DNA of 64,000 bases from Pseudorhodobacter sp. MZDSW-24AT (GTDB lineage Bacteria; Pseudomonadota; Alphaproteobacteria; Rhodobacterales; Rhodobacteraceae). Location: the NCBI RefSeq assembly GCF_002794355.1, contig NZ_PGOI01000007.1:558001-622000 (forward strand). Direction: 5' to 3'. Below are positions 17,188-62,555 of the stretch, piece after piece (within the stretch, counting starts at the first letter, position 1; each line of letters begins with the position of its first letter). The notes under the pieces are model-generated. The model was not told where the DNA came from. It worked only from the letters and a program-made list of their open reading frames with translations, and searched no databases. A program made the position numbers and the translations under genes.

Positions 17188-17204
17188 GTTAACGTTACGT
17201 TAAC
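17188..17204. promoter_or_regulatory. Perfect CtrA-binding site (TTAA-N7-TTAAC)
   Basis: GTTAACGTTACGTTAAC contains TTAA (17189-17192), a 7-base spacer and TTAAC (17200-17204), matching the full consensus of the alphaproteobacterial cell-cycle regulator CtrA, and is also a perfect 7-bp inverted repeat with a 3-base centre. It ends 43 bases before the start of the PAS-domain gene, a position overlapping its likely promoter. I found no other TTAA pair with this spacing in the window. Confidence 0.7.
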
Positions 17205-36734: not shown

Positions 36735-37573
36735 GACATCAGGACAGCGCGGCGTGTCTCTTCATCCACCTCTGGCCGATGGCCGAACCACCGCTCGAAT
36801 CCGGGTGCGGCTTGATGAAGCAGCATCCCCAGACCGTCGACAACGGTGCATCCTTTCGCTTGGGCTTCGATCAGGAATTGCGTCATCAAAGGGGTGTAGA
36901 CCAGATCTGTCACCACGGCTTCGGGGCGCAGCGCGTCAAGCGGAACGCGAAAATCCGGCTTTCCGGTCATGCCCAAAGACGTGGTGTTGACCACCGTCGC
37001 CGCGTCCTCCAGCATATTGGCCGCCTGCACCCATTCCATCACCGTAACCTTGGCGCCAAAATCCGAACGCAGCGCCTCGGCCCGTGGCCGGGTCCGGTTC
37101 GTGATCCGCACCTCTGGCACCCCCACCTCGATCAAGGCCGCCACAACGGCCCGCGCCGCACCGCCCGCGCCAAAGATCACCGCTGGCCCGGCGGCCGGGT
37201 TCCACTGCGGGGCGTTCTGCCGCAGGTTTGCGATAAAGCCCGAACCATCGGTGTTGTCGGCCTGAATCCGACCATCCTTGCGGAAGATCAGCGTATTGGC
37301 CGCCCCGATCAGGGCCGCGCGGTCGGTGATGATGACATCCGGGATCTTCAGGATCGCTTCCTTGTGCGGAATCGTCACATTTGCCCCGACAAACCCCATC
37401 TTGGGCAGCGCGTGCAGCATCGCCTGAAGGTCTGCGGGCGCAATATCCAAAGGAACATAGTGACCCCGGATGCCATAGCGCTTCAGCCAATAGGTGTGCA
37501 GGGCAGGGGAACGGCTGTGGGCGATCGGATGGCCAATCACGCCGGCAAGGGGCACACGGGGATGATCTGTCAT
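36731..37573 (-). CDS. aroE: Shikimate dehydrogenase (NADP+)
   Basis: Reduces 3-dehydroshikimate to shikimate in aromatic amino acid synthesis, 280 residues. Substrate-binding residues are visible in [13 protein letters not shown] (about 14-26), the catalytic Lys in NVTIPHKEA (about 65-73), the NADP-binding GAGGAARAV near 132-140 with the [10 protein letters not shown] loop. It overlaps maf upstream and coaE downstream by four bases each. Confidence 0.95.
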
Positions 37574-38163
37574 GTCTGGATAAGACCTCTCTGACCCAAA
37601 TATCCCAGAACGGGCAACAGCGGAAGACCAAGCACCGTGAAGTAATCCCCATCGACCGCAGAAAACAAGCGCGATCCCTCTTCCTCGAGCTTGTAGGCCC
37701 CCACGCTGTCGCGCACCGAAGGCCAGTTGCGCGCCAGATACGCATCAAGATAGGCGTCCGAAAACGACCGCATGGTCAGCTTCGTTTCGGCAACGACACG
37801 CCAGACAGGCCGCGCCGCTTCATAAATCACGACCGCCGACCACAGGCTGTGAACCTTGCCCCGCAAAAGGCGGAGCTGCTCGCCAGCCTCTTCAACACTG
37901 GACGGTTTTGAAAAAACTTTCCCTTTAAGATCAAGGACCTGGTCGCATCCTATCACAAGGTCTTCGGGACAGCGTTCGGCAATCTTCCGGGCTTTCAGCT
38001 CTGCAAGCGTATCCGCCATGTCGCGCGGCTTTGCCGCCTCGGCTTCCAGACTTTGCCGGATCGACTCTTCATCGATCCGCGCTGGCTGCACGACGACGCT
38101 GACCCCGGCAGAGATGAGAAGATGGTGTCGTATCGCAGAGGTGGAGGCGAGAATAAGGCGCAT
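37570..38163 (-). CDS. maf: Maf-family nucleotide pyrophosphatase
   Basis: House-cleaning nucleoside-triphosphate pyrophosphatase of the Maf family, 197 residues, acting on modified or non-canonical nucleotides. The N-terminal signature [14 protein letters not shown] (3-16), the KARKIAE segment, catalytic Asp in VIGCDQVL (about 75-82) and the late [11 protein letters not shown] are visible. ATG 38163 is the canonical start; upstream in-frame sequence extends into the origin region and is not coding. First gene of the leftward operon beside oriC. Confidence 0.93.
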
Positions 38164-38577
38164 GGCAGCGGGGACAGCTCTGTGGATATCTGTGCTTTGT
38201 TCTTGTGGCGGAGATTGTGCGCAGGACGCGATATGACGCAAAGGAGCGGCAGGGCAGGGCAGTTGTCAAGCGTGAGTCAAAAGATATCCCACTGTGCACG
38301 CCGGAATGCGACGGCTGTGGGAAAGCCGCAAAGCCCCTGTCGCAGTGTCGCGGCGTGGATGTTTTCTCCACCAAAGTCCACAAAGCTAACATTATGAATT
38401 TCAATAGAATTTAAAAAGTTTTCCACAGAAAAGGTGACTTATCCACCGACTTATCCCAGAAAGCCCGTCTGTGGAAAATCAGTTGGAAAAACGCTGAAAT
38501 TCTGTTTTCCACAGGCCCTACATCTACATTCCTTTTCTCTCTTTATTTTAATAAAGAAGATGAGATCGTGAGGTGAG
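38164..38577. other. oriC: Probable chromosomal replication origin (oriC)
   Basis: This 414-bp gene-free stretch separates the leftward maf operon from the rightward hemJ-rho-mnmE-mnmG-parAB genes. It holds DnaA-box-like 9-mers, one mismatch from TTATCCACA, at 38181-38189 (minus), 38419-38427, 38439-38447, 38470-38478 (minus) and 38505-38513, plus weaker ones at 38316-38324 (minus) and 38451-38459. AT-rich tracts at 38386-38420 and 38540-38557 (the latter an inverted repeat CTTTATT/AATAAAG) could unwind. One GANTC methylation site is at 38274-38278. Gene context and box clustering match alphaproteobacterial origins. Confidence 0.85.
38419..38513. repeat. DnaA-box cluster within oriC
   Basis: Four 9-mers each one mismatch from TTATCCACA lie within 95 bp: TTTTCCACA (38419), TTATCCACC (38439), the reverse of TTTTCCACA (38470) and TTTTCCACA again (38505), with the weaker TTATCCCAG at 38451. 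The cluster is directly beside the AT-rich segment on its left. Confidence 0.8.
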
Positions 38578-39027
38578 ATGACCGAAGTTCTGACAAACTG
38601 GTATTTTTGGGTGAAGTCCTTGCACGTCATCTCGGTGATCGCGTGGATGGCGGGGCTGTTCTATCTGCCCAGATTGTTCGTTTACCATGTCGAGGCGGTC
38701 GCCCAAGGCAGCGACACGGACCGCTTGTTCCAGACGATGGAGCGCCGTTTGCTGAAAGCGATCATGAACCCGGCGATGATCTCAACCTGGATCTTCGGGC
38801 TGAGCCTTGTGGCCACGCCCGGAATTGTGGACTGGACGATGATCTGGCCATGGGTCAAGGCCGCGTCCGTTCTGGCGATGACCTGGTTTCACATGTGGCT
38901 TGCCAAACAAAGAAAATCCTTCGCGGCGGGCAGCAATACGCTGACAGGGCGGCGATACCGCCTGATGAACGAGGTGCCGACGCTGCTATTGCTGCTGATC
39001 GTCTTCTCGGTGATCGTGAAGTTCTGA
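38578..39027 (+). CDS. hemJ: Protoporphyrinogen IX oxidase HemJ
   Basis: Membrane-embedded oxygen-independent-type oxidase of protoporphyrinogen IX found in most alphaproteobacteria, 149 residues. Four membrane helices are visible; the first carries the conserved His in VKSLHVISVIAWMAG (His about 16) and the LPRLFVYHVE segment follows (His about 37), with WFHMWLAKQRK near 101-111. AGGTGAG precedes the ATG. It is the first rightward gene from oriC and completes the haem theme of hemD, hemY and hemW in this window. Confidence 0.93.
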   Translation: MTEVLTNWYFWVKSLHVISVIAWMAGLFYLPRLFVYHVEAVAQGSDTDRLFQTMERRLLKAIMNPAMISTWIFGLSLVATPGIVDWTMIWPWVKAASVLAMTWFHMWLAKQRKSFAAGSNTLTGRRYRLMNEVPTLLLLLIVFSVIVKF

Positions 39028-41730: not shown

Positions 41731-43605
41731 TTGTTTCACGTGAAACATTTTGATGTCATTGTGATCGGTGGGGGACATGCGGGAACAGAGGCGGCTTTCG
41801 CGGCTGCCCGTACAGGCGCGTCCGTAGGCTTGGTGACCCAGAAACTCAGCTCCATCGGGATGATGTCCTGCAACCCCGCCATCGGAGGCTTGGGAAAAGG
41901 CCATCTTGTACGCGAGATTGATGCCTTCGACGGGCTGATGGGACGGGCCGCAGATGCGGCTGGCATTCAATTTCGGCTTTTGAACAAAAGAAAAGGGCCT
42001 GCCGTGCAAGGCCCTCGCGCACAGATTGATCGAAAACTGTACCGTCAGTTTGTGCAATCAGAGCTTCGTCTCACCAAAGGCCTGACGCTCATCGAAGGCG
42101 AGGTGGTGGACCTTCTGGTGGAATCCGCGCAGGTCACAGGCGTTTTGTTGGGGAACGGCGAACGCGTCGCCGCGCCCGCCGTGGTTTTGACGGCGGGAAC
42201 TTTCCTGAATGGTCTGATTCACATCGGCCAAGACCGTCATTCTGGCGGGCGGATGGGCGATGATGCGTCTCTTCGGCTTGGAGACCGTCTGAACGATCTT
42301 GGCTTGAAACGCGGCCGTTTGAAAACTGGGACGCCTCCACGCCTTGATGGAAAGACCATCGACTGGTCCATGCTTGAGATGCAGGCCGGTGACGAAGTTC
42401 CGACGATGTTCTCTTTTCTCAATACCCGGCCCGTGGCGCGGCAGATTTCCTGCGGCATCACCCGCACAAATGAGAAAACGCATGAGATCATCCGGGCCAA
42501 CTTGTCAAAATCTGCCATGTATGGCGGCCATATCGAAGGCGTCGGGCCGCGGTACTGCCCTTCGATCGAAGACAAGGTGACGCGTTTTTCCGATAAGGAT
42601 GGGCATCAAGTCTTTCTGGAGCCTGAAGGATTGGACGACGACACCATCTATCCCAATGGCATTTCGTCCTCCCTCCCGATTGACGTGCAAGAGGCCTATG
42701 TTGCCTCGATCCCAGGGCTTGAACACGCCAGAATTCTTCAACCCGCTTACGCGATCGAATACGACTATTTCGATCCACGCGCCCTGTCGCCATCGCTGGA
42801 ACTTCCAGATCTGCCCGGGCTCTTCCTCGCCGGCCAAATCAATGGGACGACGGGATATGAAGAGGCGGCGGCGCAAGGGCTTTGTGCCGGATTGAACGCG
42901 GCACAACTTGCCCTTCAAAAGCCCAGTGTCACCTTCCATCGCTCTGACAGTTACATCGGCGTTCTGATTGATGATCTGCGCACAATGGGGGTGACAGAGC
43001 CTTATCGCATGTTCACCTCTCGGGCTGAATTCCGGCTTTCGTTGCGGGCGGATAATGCGGATCAGCGTCTTACGGCGCGCGCCATTGATCTTGGTATGGT
43101 CAGCGAAGAACGCGTTGGCGCCTTTACCCAAAAACTCGATCGTCTTGAAAAAGCAAAAGCCGCGTTGGATAGCCTGAGTTTCACCCCGAGGGAACTTTTG
43201 GCCTTTGGTCTCCAGGTCAGCGCTGACGGCACCCGCCGGTCCGCGCTTGAAGTGTTGGGCGCCTATCCGATGTCGCCGGAAGAGCAAACCCGGTTGGTCC
43301 CCATGCTTGATGATCTTTCGCCCGAAACACGAGAGCAATTGATCCGTGACGCGATGTATGGGCGTTATCTCACTCGGCAGTCAGAACAGATTTCACAACT
43401 CAAAAGGGAAGAGGCGACCGAAATCCCGCATGATTTTGCCTATGCCTCCATGTCTGGCTTGTCTGGGGAGCTGAAGTCAAAGCTGACTGTGCGCCGTCCG
43501 GCATCTTTGGCAGAAGCCGCCAAGATCGAAGGAATGACACCTGCAGCATTGGCGTTGATCCTCGCCAACTTGCGCAAACACACCGCGTCACGGGCCGCTG
43601 TATGA
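41731..43605 (+). CDS. mnmG: tRNA uridine-5-carboxymethylaminomethyl modification enzyme MnmG
   Basis: FAD-dependent partner of MnmE, 624 residues. The N-terminal FAD motif [12 protein letters not shown] is at about 11-22, followed by [20 protein letters not shown] typical of the family; the C-terminal helical domain binds MnmE and tRNA. The start is non-ATG: either TTG 41731 (MFHVKHFDV) or GTG 41740 (MKHFDV), the latter 9 bases after AGGA. The parS palindrome at 41732-41747 forms the first codons. It overlaps rsmG by four bases. Confidence 0.95.
41732..41747. promoter_or_regulatory. parS: parS centromere-like site 1
   Basis: TGTTTCACGTGAAACA is the perfect 16-bp parS palindrome bound by chromosomal ParB. 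It sits at the mnmE-mnmG junction, about 3.2 kb from the proposed oriC and 3.3 kb before parB. Confidence 0.96.
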
Positions 43606-44225
43606 TGTCATCGGTGGAAAGATCTTTCGCAGGAAATGTTTCACGTGAAACAATGGAACGTTACAACCTCCTCGAAAGTCTCGTCAAAAAATGGAACCCG
43701 GCCATAAACCTGGTTTCCAAGGAAAGCGTCGCTCACCTCTATGACCGTCACATCCAAGATTCTGCCCAGCTATTTTACCTTGCCAATTGCACCTCAGGGC
43801 TATGGTGTGATCTGGGCAGCGGTGGCGGATTCCCCGGACTCGTCATCGCAATCCTCATGAAAGGGGAGGGTGTTGCCGCCAACCTGACGCTTGTCGAATC
43901 CGATGCGCGCAAATGTGCATTTCTCCGAGAAGCAGCGCGTCAACTCGACCTTGATGTCGCGGTTTCGAACCACAGGATCGAGGAATTGCCGCCCTCTCAC
44001 GCAGACTATCTTTCTGCAAGGGCACTCTCGTCCCTCACAAACCTGTGCGCCTTCGCAGATCGCCACCTTGCTGCCAACGGCACCGCATTTTTTCCGAAAG
44101 GAGAGCGCTTTGCCGCCGAGGTTGAAGAGGCGAAACGGCTCTGGACCTTCGATCTTCGTGTTCATCCCAGCATCACTCATCCCGCCGCCGCGATCCTTGA
44201 ACTGAAGAATATTCGCCATGTCTGA
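43602..44225 (+). CDS. rsmG: 16S rRNA (guanine(527)-N7)-methyltransferase RsmG
   Basis: SAM-dependent methyltransferase acting on 16S rRNA G527, 207 residues; loss gives low-level streptomycin resistance in many bacteria. The SAM-binding [18 protein letters not shown] is at about 67-84, with the preceding [12 protein letters not shown] and HIQDSAQL signatures. Residues 12-17 (NVSRET) are encoded by a second parS palindrome. ATG 43602 (followed by ATG 43605) overlaps the mnmG stop, and its end overlaps parA by 8 bases. Confidence 0.95.
43637..43652. promoter_or_regulatory. parS: parS centromere-like site 2
   Basis: A second exact copy of TGTTTCACGTGAAACA lies 1.9 kb from the first, inside codons 12-17 of rsmG and upstream of parAB. 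Two identical 16-mers so close, next to parAB and oriC, mark the chromosomal partition centromere. Confidence 0.96.
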
Positions 44226-45030
44226 TGTCGCCTCACGCACCGCGCCTCGTGTCATCGCCATCGCCAATCAGAAAGGGGGCGTGGGCAAAACCACGACCAC
44301 GATCAACCTCGCCGCTGGACTTGTCGAGTTTGGCTATAAAGTCCTGGTCATCGACATTGATCCTCAGGGAAATGCGTCGACAGGCCTCGGCATCTCCGCC
44401 GAGAACCGGCACCGCACCAGTTACGATCTGCTGCTCGAACAGGCCAAGCTGGTGGATCTCATTCAAAGTGGCTCGGTGCCGGGCATTTTCGTATGCCCCG
44501 CCAATGCAGATCTCGCCTCCGCCGATATCGACCTCGTGGCCAGCGAAAAGCGCTCTTTTCTGCTGTCGGATGCCATCCGAGACGCCGCCTTCTTGTCGGA
44601 AGCCTTCGATTTCGTGCTGATCGATTGCCCGCCGTCCTTGTCGCTCCTGACCGTCAATGCGCTGGTGGCCGCGGAATCCGTCTTGATTCCCTTGCAAAGT
44701 GAGTTCTTCGCGCTCGAAGGCCTCTCGCAACTGATGCTGACAATCCGAGACATCCGAAAATCCGCCAACCCTCGCCTGCGCATCGAAGGGGTTTTGGTTA
44801 CGATGACAGACAGCAGGAACAGGCTGTCCCAACAGGTTGAGGCGGACGCAAGGGCAAATCTGGGCGATATGGTCTTTGCAACCACGATTCCCCGCAATGT
44901 CAGGGTCTCCGAGGCACCCTCCTACGCGCTGCCTGTGCTCCAATATGATCCGACATCAAAAGGGGCCGAGGCCTATCGCCGCCTGTCACTCGAGATCATT
45001 TCGCGCCGGCCCAACGGGCGCGCCGCCTGA
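44218..45030 (+). CDS. parA: Chromosome partitioning ATPase ParA
   Basis: Walker-type ATPase that moves ParB-parS complexes, 270 residues. The deviant Walker A NQKGGVGKTTTTINLA is at about 17-32, the Walker A' DIDPQGNAST near 47-56 and Walker B FVLIDCPPSLSLL near 130-142. It lacks the N-terminal HTH of plasmid type Ia ParA, as expected for the chromosomal Soj class. It overlaps rsmG and precedes parB by 16 bases. Confidence 0.96.
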   Translation: MSDVASRTAPRVIAIANQKGGVGKTTTTINLAAGLVEFGYKVLVIDIDPQGNASTGLGISAENRHRTSYDLLLEQAKLVDLIQSGSVPGIFVCPANADLASADIDLVASEKRSFLLSDAIRDAAFLSEAFDFVLIDCPPSLSLLTVNALVAAESVLIPLQSEFFALEGLSQLMLTIRDIRKSANPRLRIEGVLVTMTDSRNRLSQQVEADARANLGDMVFATTIPRNVRVSEAPSYALPVLQYDPTSKGAEAYRRLSLEIISRRPNGRAA

Positions 45031-45046
45031 AGAAGAAAGAGCAGTT

Positions 45047-45961
45047 ATGGACAAAAAAGCAGACCGCAAAGGGCTAGGGCGCGGCCTCTCCGCATTGATG
45101 GCGGATGTGAATTTGCTGAAAGGCGATGTCGAGCCCCGTGAGGGCACAGCGCCAATCCCCGACACAACGCTGCCGATCGAGCTTGTCTTCCCCAACCCAA
45201 ATCAGCCGCGCAGAGATTTCGACCCCGAGCTCTTGGAAGAACTCGCCGCGTCGATCCGAAGCCGAGGCATCATCCAGCCGTTGGTCGTGCGGGCCATCAA
45301 GGGCCGTGAGGCTTACGAAATTGTCGCGGGCGAGCGGCGGTGGCGCGCCGCGCAGATGGCGCAACTCCACACGGTTCCGGTGGTCATCCGCGACTTTTCG
45401 GATGATGAGGTCCTCGAAATCGCGATCATCGAGAACATTCAGCGCGCCGATCTCAACGCGGTGGAAGAAGCGCTCAGCTTCCGGCAGCTGATGGAAAGCT
45501 ATGGGCATACGCAGGAAAAACTCGCGGAAGCCCTGTCAAAAAGCCGCTCTCACATCGCGAACACGATGCGTCTGCTCACCTTGCCAGATGATGTTCTGAA
45601 CATGATCCGGGCCGGCAAGCTGACCGCCGGCCACGCCCGTGCCCTGATCGGCACACCCGAACCCGCTGCCTTGGCGGCCAAGGTTGTGGGCGGCGGCCTC
45701 TCGGTCAGGGAAACGGAAAAACTCGTCAAAAGCGCCCTGTCGCAGCCCGCAAAGCGCGCGCAGAAATCCGGTCGCTCCGAAAAAGACGCCGATACCCGCG
45801 CGATAGAGGCCGATATCAGTGCGAATTTGCGCATGACCGTGACCATCGATCACGACTCTGCGGGGGAAGGCGGAACCCTTCGCATCCGCTACGCCAATCT
45901 GGATGAGCTGGATATGCTCTGCCAAGTCCTCTCTGTCATTCCCCGCGATTTTGCGAAGTAA
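45047..45961 (+). CDS. parB: Chromosome partitioning protein ParB
   Basis: CTP-dependent parS-binding clamp protein, 304 residues. The N-terminal KGLGRGLSALM (8-18) stimulates ParA. The CTP/ParB box includes NPNQPRRDF and IVAGERRWRAAQ (about 87-99), the HTH is in TQEKLAEALSKSRSHIANTMRLL (about 149-171), and a C-terminal dimerisation domain ends at FAK. Start ATG 45047 gives this canonical N-terminus. Both parS targets lie within 3.4 kb upstream. Confidence 0.96.
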   Translation: MDKKADRKGLGRGLSALMADVNLLKGDVEPREGTAPIPDTTLPIELVFPNPNQPRRDFDPELLEELAASIRSRGIIQPLVVRAIKGREAYEIVAGERRWRAAQMAQLHTVPVVIRDFSDDEVLEIAIIENIQRADLNAVEEALSFRQLMESYGHTQEKLAEALSKSRSHIANTMRLLTLPDDVLNMIRAGKLTAGHARALIGTPEPAALAAKVVGGGLSVRETEKLVKSALSQPAKRAQKSGRSEKDADTRAIEADISANLRMTVTIDHDSAGEGGTLRIRYANLDELDMLCQVLSVIPRDFAK

Positions 45962-62082: not shown

Positions 62083-62555
62083 TTGCGGCGCTCAAGTTCC
62101 TGCACATCGCGGCACTGCTGTGCTGGTGCGCAGCACTGATCGCGCTGCCCATTCTTTTGCACCATTACAGGGGGGCGAAGGCGCAATCGCGCTTTACCGA
62201 ATTCCGTTTGGTCACGCATACAGGTTACACAGTCTTTGCAACACCTGCCGCCGTGGCCGCCATAGCCGCCGGAACGGCCTTGATCTTTGCGGCGGATGTT
62301 CGGGCTGAATGGCTTTGGGTAAAGCTGACCTTTGTCTGCGGCATGTCATTGGTTCATGCCTGGATCGGTCATCTGGTCCTGCGTTCGGGCGAGAGCGGCG
62401 GCACCTTTCGCATGCCACCGCCCCTCATCGCCATCCTCTTGGTGGTGCCGCAAATCGCGGTGGTCCTTTGGCTTGTCCTCGCAAAACCCGATGTGGCTTG
62501 GATCGGTGATCTGTTGCCTGTCGTTCTCTTGGAACCTCAGGGAGGGTCTCTGTGA
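62079..62555 (+). CDS. CopD/HemJ-like small membrane protein
   Basis: Membrane protein of 158 residues with four hydrophobic helices, resembling the CopD/HemJ/DUF2269 fold: an N-terminal (M)IAALKFLHIAALLCWCAALIALP with a conserved-type His at about 9, and later His in SLVHAWIGHLVL. GTG 62079 overlaps the ctaG stop. Location suggests a role in assembly of the oxidase encoded downstream. Exact function unknown. Its end overlaps the opposing DUF2231 gene by 19 bases. Confidence 0.7.
   Translation: MIAALKFLHIAALLCWCAALIALPILLHHYRGAKAQSRFTEFRLVTHTGYTVFATPAAVAAIAAGTALIFAADVRAEWLWVKLTFVCGMSLVHAWIGHLVLRSGESGGTFRMPPPLIAILLVVPQIAVVLWLVLAKPDVAWIGDLLPVVLLEPQGGSL

Follow-up and report, generated by a model that had tools for sequence, protein, structure and literature searches.

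Does the maf–hemJ gap in the chromosome of Pseudorhodobacter sp. MZDSW-24AT hold its replication origin, as a first-pass annotation of the sequence had claimed, and by which of its elements would DnaA open the DNA? The window, i.e. the whole stretch of 64,000 nucleotides that was analysed, comprises bases 558001–622000 of contig C24 (740,207 bp) of a 3.86-Mb draft genome in 26 contigs. The G+C content of the gap is 48%, compared with 55–65% across the window in 2-kb blocks. Genes for an RNase T-type exonuclease (dnaQ-like), coaE, aroE and maf read leftward, and hemJ, rho, mnmE, mnmG, rsmG, parA and parB read rightward; the annotated gene order, outward on both flanks with mnmE-mnmG-rsmG-parAB on one side, was confirmed by Pfam. 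A plasmid origin was rejected, the gap having no match among 72,556 plasmid records. Coordinates of all features are collected in Table 1.

Table 1 Features of the maf–hemJ gap and its surroundings; position 1 is the first base of the window
Feature	Positions	Strand	Basis or conservation
maf (PF02545), left flank	37570..38163	-	Pfam
Very probable oriC, maf–hemJ intergenic gap	38164..38577	.	414 bp; box cluster and kept gap
DnaA box B1, ATATCCACA	38181..38189	-	box with ≤1 mismatch here in 13/13 genus gaps
Conserved TTTGTTC	38196..38202	+	12/13 genus gaps; not a DnaA box by consensus
TTGTCAAG element	38263..38270	+	TGTCAA in 11/13 genus gaps; not DnaA-box consensus
GATATCCCACTGTG element	38283..38296	+	TATCC[CA] here in 12/13 genus gaps; not DnaA-box consensus
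Left AT-rich stretch, 84% AT	38389..38420	.	alternative or additional candidate unwinding region
DnaA box B2, TTTTCCACA	38419..38427	+	box with ≤1 mismatch in 11/13 genus gaps
DnaA box B3, TTATCCACC	38439..38447	+	box with ≤1 mismatch in 9/13 genus gaps
DnaA box B4, TTTTCCACA	38470..38478	-	box with ≤1 mismatch in 7/13 genus gaps
DnaA box B5, TTTTCCACA	38505..38513	+	adjoins trinucleotide array; ≤1 mismatch in 12/13 genus gaps
GGCC spacer	38514..38517	+	identical to the spacer reported in B. subtilis (box to DnaA-trios)
Trinucleotide array CTA-CAT-CTA-CAT (other strand 3'-GAT-GTA-GAT-GTA-5'), DnaA-trio-like	38518..38529	+	
T/C-rich, then AT-rich tract with palindrome CTTTATTTTAATAAAG (38541–38556)	38530..38556	+	78% AT
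hemJ (PF03653, UPF0093), right flank	38578..39027	+	Pfam
parS GTTTCACGTGAAAC	41733..41746	.	match to consensus
parS GTTTCACGTGAAAC	43638..43651	.	match to consensus
parA (44218–45030) and parB (ORF to 45961)	44218..45961	+	Pfam

DnaA boxes were counted as 9-mers with at most one mismatch to TTATCCACA. Five are present in the gap, B1 at the maf end and B2–B5 in its hemJ-side 40%; of the seven DnaA-box-like 9-mers annotated, these five stood, and the other two are weaker (e.g. TTATCCCAG at 38451, with three mismatches). None of the five matches the consensus exactly, as had been stated, but their imperfection is usual and not an oddity, a perfect box being present in only 4 of the 13 genus gaps (own gap among them). 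Across 400,207 bp of the contig 33 such boxes were found, and the gap, with five boxes in 414 bp, is the only 415-bp stretch that holds at least two (Poisson ~1.6 × 10−7, window-corrected). Genome-wide (3.86 Mb), TTWTCCACA occurs in 36 copies vs. 37 for the reversed control, and three of these fall in the gap. One other pair less than 100 bp apart was noted among the listed sites (C26:161827 and C26:161895) and was rejected, as it lies inside an ABC-transporter permease ORF. The two ends of contig C24 (1–44 and 740164–740207) are identical inverted 44-bp sequences carrying a perfect DnaA box; the assembly probably broke there at a repeat.

Replication polarity was assessed from strand-biased octamers, GC skew and parS sites. 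The octamer GGGNAGGG, which we take to be KOPS, stands in forward orientation in 15 of 58 copies left of the gap vs. 18 of 21 copies right of it (p = 3 × 10−6), and none of the other pairs among the 3,488 octamer pairs present in ≥30 copies switches strand at the gap as strongly as GGGCAGGG/CCCTGCCC. The best-fitting change-point for KOPS lies 13–15 kb left of the gap. In a second genome of the genus (G014) the flip was found with p = 0.0084, GGGCAGGG ranking 20th of 2,901 pairs; the local flip was not significant in G132 (p = 0.23, split ~1 kb from the gap) or in G094 (p = 1). GC skew is weak, with its cumulative minimum, taken over a 400-kb part of one contig, at C24:619,094, which is 22.5 kb to the right of the gap; in the stretches of the relatives the minima were off the gap by ~39 kb (G014), 21 kb (G094) and 18 kb (G132). 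As a precise locator of the origin GC skew was therefore discarded, since minima displaced by 18–39 kb in the four genomes tried only bracket the gap. Coarse support for the maf–hemJ gap as origin is given by the complete relative G094, in which the skew of 20-kb blocks stays close to zero with mixed sign at 0–0.1 Mb, is positive in 16/20 at 0.1–2.2 Mb and negative in 13/13 at 2.4–4.16 Mb; the sign changes near 0–0.1 and 2.2–2.4 Mb compare with a maf–hemJ gap at 123 kb and a point half a chromosome beyond it at 2.2 Mb. Two matches to GTTTCACGTGAAAC, taken here as the parS consensus, lie ~3 and 5 kb from the gap, another is at C24:550,019, and parA, parB and the two nearby parS sites are all within 8 kb of the gap.

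The gap was then compared across the family. In the first 42 loci (13 of the genus including our own, 29 of the family) the order aroE-maf-gap-hemJ, or maf-gap-hemJ where the locus is cut, was present in 42/42. Extended to the 122 best hemJ matches (these 42 and the best 80 of 448, some being the same genome twice), the gap was found in 121, the exception being a locus (L236) whose sequence begins 315 bp before hemJ. Removal of identical gaps left 111 distinct ones of 349–486 bp (median 415), of which 101 contain two to six boxes at ≤1 mismatch, eight a single box and two none; for 20 more distant family gaps the corresponding numbers are 16, three and one. The densest box cluster of the stretch is also at the gap in G014 (four boxes) and G094 (six boxes).

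A hemJ match was obtained in 79 of 100 family genomes sampled, seven of the matches being weak, and 52 of the other 72 genomes with a match were examined. As 50 of these 52 show maf-gap-hemJ, the hemJ flank, annotated as an oddity in place of hemE, is the usual one in the family. Of the remaining two, L407 has no maf in its stretch and G132 reads maf-gap-hemE-hemJ (hemE between gap and hemJ, C1:785587–787967), which is perhaps the ancestral arrangement or a deep branch. In 28 genomes the hemJ match was weak or lacking; 16 of these were taken (L315–L330; 13 with none, three with only a weak or distant match), and all 16 have aroE-maf-gap-rho. Their gaps contain 42 boxes in 6,720 bases (the first 420 of each) vs. 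none in 48,600 flanking bases, and every one carries at least one box. Outside the family, hemE is upstream of hemJ in 27/29 loci (the best 29 of 95 genomes with a match), and maf was detected near hemE in some of 29 hemE loci. The gaps without hemJ keep their boxes while the neighbours differ, which suggests that the origin stays in place as its neighbour changes, and accounts for hemJ or rho, instead of hemE, as origin neighbour in this family. Elsewhere in the window, at 62091–62414, a 275-aa open frame gave a further UPF0093/HemJ-like match, a distant one with 28% identity, and similar matches are present in five other members of the genus.

That the hemJ-side block is a promoter or leader of hemJ, with DnaA as its regulator and with no part in an origin, is scarcely credible, for although the block, ~20–90 bp ahead of the hemJ start, ranks with the most strongly conserved portions of the gap, gap and boxes are kept in the 16 genomes without a close hemJ, a block of its kind is still recognised by pattern in 6/16 of these gaps (0/16 in a control stretch; more by eye), the C-periodic blocks found outside the family (see below) precede hemE, and the KOPS flip would be left unexplained.

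It is likewise very improbable that the true origin lies elsewhere, e.g. at the local skew minimum at C24:619 kb or at dnaA (C24:483 kb). The position of the minimum and the distance of 112 kb between dnaA and the gap speak for such a site, the skew having been read from one contig of 26; however, neither place has a stretch with two boxes, and KOPS, parS and conservation all indicate the gap region. With the only box cluster in 400 kb, the KOPS flip, the nearby parS sites and the conserved, boxed gap in agreement with each other and with the skew of G094, the origin claimed by the first-pass annotation is upheld, and we consider the maf–hemJ gap to be, with high probability, the DnaA-dependent replication origin of the chromosome.

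Within the gap, both AT-rich stretches and the inverted repeat CTTTATT/AATAAAG that had been annotated are present (Table 1). The exact palindrome was found in 1/111 gaps and a looser CTTT...AAAG form in 9/13 genus gaps and 14/111 overall (shuffles 1.2). Of the conserved elements that deviate from the box consensus, GATATCCCACTGTG is possibly a weak DnaA site. A full CtrA site, for which TTAA-N7-TTAA was assumed as consensus, is absent from the gap, and the single match across the window is at 17189.

The tract 38530–38556 is likely the DNA that is opened. Less likely, though still to be reckoned with, is a start of opening at the left AT-rich stretch of the same origin, with the trinucleotide array in a secondary role. 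The least stable 30-mer of the gap lies in this left stretch (−29.7 kcal/mol, against −30.6 for the hemJ side), the same being true of 9/13 genus gaps, and box B2 abuts it; B2, however, reads away from the stretch, the genus alignment shows no conservation of its sequence whereas the array is conserved, and of the 111 gaps 61 have their least stable 30-mer on the hemJ side and 50 have it further left.

The preferred opening site, on the hemJ side, is preceded by an ordered series of elements: B5 (TTTTCCACA), GGCC, CTA-CAT-CTA-CAT, T/C-rich and finally AT-rich DNA. In the hemJ-side 140 bp, runs of at least three CWW units were present in 89/111 gaps, compared with 2/111 on the maf side and 84/2,220 shuffles; a box, a spacer of at most 16 bases and at least three CWW units were found together in 79/111 (maf side 1, shuffles 0). 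When the gaps were anchored on the box (106/111), C recurred at every third base with z = 10.9, 7.0 and 6.6 at lags 3, 6 and 9; three control stretches have no C peak at lags 3 or 6, and one has 3.4 at lag 9. With the box as the only anchor, C stands at +4, +7, +10 and +13 after it in 13/13 genus gaps. Selection for a 4-base spacer and two CWW units gave 51 arrays, in which C in units 1–2 is thus preset; 40 of them open with CTA (3'-GAT-5'), in agreement with the published box-proximal trio, and CAT or CAA predominates further on, with C first in 35, 48 and 31 of the 51 in units 3–5. By these counts the periodic base of the family is C (G on the presumed bound strand) and not the published middle A.

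The CWW rule was formed on the 111 gaps, and the 20 more distant family gaps served as hold-out. Here a run of at least three CWW units was present in 10/20 (maf side 0, shuffles 1.1), box and CWW together in 4/20 (shuffles 0), and C periodicity (18 gaps anchored) gave z = 4.9 at lag 3 and only 0.1 at lag 6, from which the array signal in distant family members appears real but weaker. Outside the family, in 25 hemE loci, the CWW rule was satisfied in 1/25 and the published rule, i.e. a box, a spacer of at most 16 bases and at least three NTN units, in 5/25 (shuffles 1.2); a weaker C periodicity was seen before hemE (z = 4.2 at lag 3 and 5.6 at lag 6) when the loci were anchored on a pattern set by eye, which fitted 18/25.

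These data leave two readings of the array to be weighed. The first, which we hold to be quite possible though short of probable, is that the array consists of ordinary DnaA-trios in a shifted phase, CATCATCAT also holding ATC units with a middle T (3'-TAG-5'). It is favoured by the published rule, which was satisfied in 69/111 gaps (maf side 5, or 18 when read outward; shuffles 8) and in 7/20 hold-out gaps (shuffles 1), there above the CWW rule. Box B5, with one mismatch and a spacer of four, is within the limits given for the box of a B. subtilis-type basal unwinding system (BUS; ≤2 mismatches, spacer ≤16). Against a shifted phase, the units of the conserved array in the window alternate and do not give three consecutive 3'-NAN-5' units, the sole run in the window that satisfies the rule being a weak TTC-CTT-TTC 15 bases from the box; many arrays have CAA or alternating CTA/CAT; and the middle T, present in 41 of the 51 arrays in unit 1, drops to 9, 8, 4 and 7 in units 2–5, with C still first in most arrays in units 3–5.

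The second reading is that the DnaA-trio code is shifted in Alphaproteobacteria, such that the frame is set by the leading base of each unit (bound strand G, other strand C) instead of the middle A, the protein having changed along with it. The structural passages of PMC10721633 describe Arg202 and Glu228 of DnaA as gripping the first base G, Asn187 and Glu183 the middle A, and Asn196 as touching the third base; a middle T or G is reported there to impair opening, and a middle C not. The DnaA of the strain (aligned at L001:961–2445 to 8BTG) has Lys, Glu, Tyr, Glu and Lys at positions 202, 228, 187, 183 and 196. Residues were then compared in 30 alphaproteobacterial DnaAs (that of the strain plus the 29 best loci from 57 genomes) and 28 from other Pseudomonadota (the best loci of 120 genomes). 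Position 187 is Tyr in 25, Phe in three and His in two of the former, vs. Ala in 15, Gln in nine, Thr in three and Ser in one of the latter; position 196 is Lys in 28/30 vs. Asn in 25/28, and Lys202 and Glu228 are present in 58/58. Tyr, Phe or His at 187 and mostly Lys at 196, with the guanine pocket (Lys/Arg202, Glu228) kept, would fit a frame set by the first base, as a correlation. Running counter to it, all 30 alphaproteobacterial DnaAs retain Glu183, the other residue that contacts the middle A, which also favours the shifted phase, and the other Pseudomonadota have DnaAs without Asn187 too, arrays having been compared in Alphaproteobacteria alone. The two readings had at first been rated alike; the unchanged Glu183 and the weaker hold-out raised the shifted phase somewhat and lowered the shifted code, which we now put forward only tentatively and regard as rather doubtful.

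Initiation at the maf–hemJ origin may be pictured as follows. DnaA would bind all of B1 to B5; from B5, pointing to hemJ, a DnaA filament would pass GGCC onto the bottom strand of the array and cover 38518–38529 at three bases per protomer. The T/C- and AT-rich DNA behind the array would then open for helicase loading, forks would depart both ways, and ParAB-parS would separate the new origins.

An origin of known kind is well supported here, and what is less ordinary about it is a deviant trio-like array, coupled with a DnaA difference across the class. With Cori of Caulobacter crescentus, the hemE/COG1806 origin as described in passages of PMC1914354, the gap shares an alphaproteobacterial DnaA-box origin near heme genes and weak DnaA sites; it differs in its flanks, maf and hemJ, and in the lack of TTAA-N7-TTAA. 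A flanking hemE is absent, the sole match being at C24:135384, 460 kb from the gap, and the wider neighbourhood is shared, hemE upstream of hemJ in loci outside the family being in keeping with the hemE/COG1806 origin. The hemE gene itself (stretch C24:133001–139000) adjoins a divergent hemC-like gene. Within the Rhodobacteraceae, oriCs of 101 strains were predicted by Ori-Finder with closeness to parAB as an aid, as set out in sections of PMC6699656, and the box variants given there include TGTGGATAT, which equals box B1; the words maf and hemJ are absent from the main text of that paper, and its passages on origins give no internal anatomy. OriC1 of R. sphaeroides was, according to portions of PMC6315104, located by cumulative GC skew and tracked by ParB1. 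An open-access literature search returned no paper that treats hemJ together with oriC.

The closest mechanistic parallel is the BUS of B. subtilis. Base-level knowledge of how DnaA chooses the strand and the place of opening exists for trios of this type, and a deviant array in much of one family, together with a class-wide difference in the DnaA residue that reads the middle base, makes the question testable. According to PMC8287927, 15% of origins are without trios and deviant motifs lacking the middle adenine are suspected; classes of Proteobacteria are marked on its tree, and its supplementary tables may include alphaproteobacterial trios. The passages of PMC8235120, PMC8287927 and PMC10721633 on the BUS describe what the gap has in common with it, namely a DnaA box, GGCC (placed between box and trios in PMC8235120), a trinucleotide repeat with 3'-GAT-5' proximal to the box, and then AT-rich DNA. 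The two systems differ in that the units after the first are here mostly without the middle A read by Asn187, the conserved phase base being the first G, and in that the residue aligned to Asn187 of B. subtilis DnaA is Tyr.
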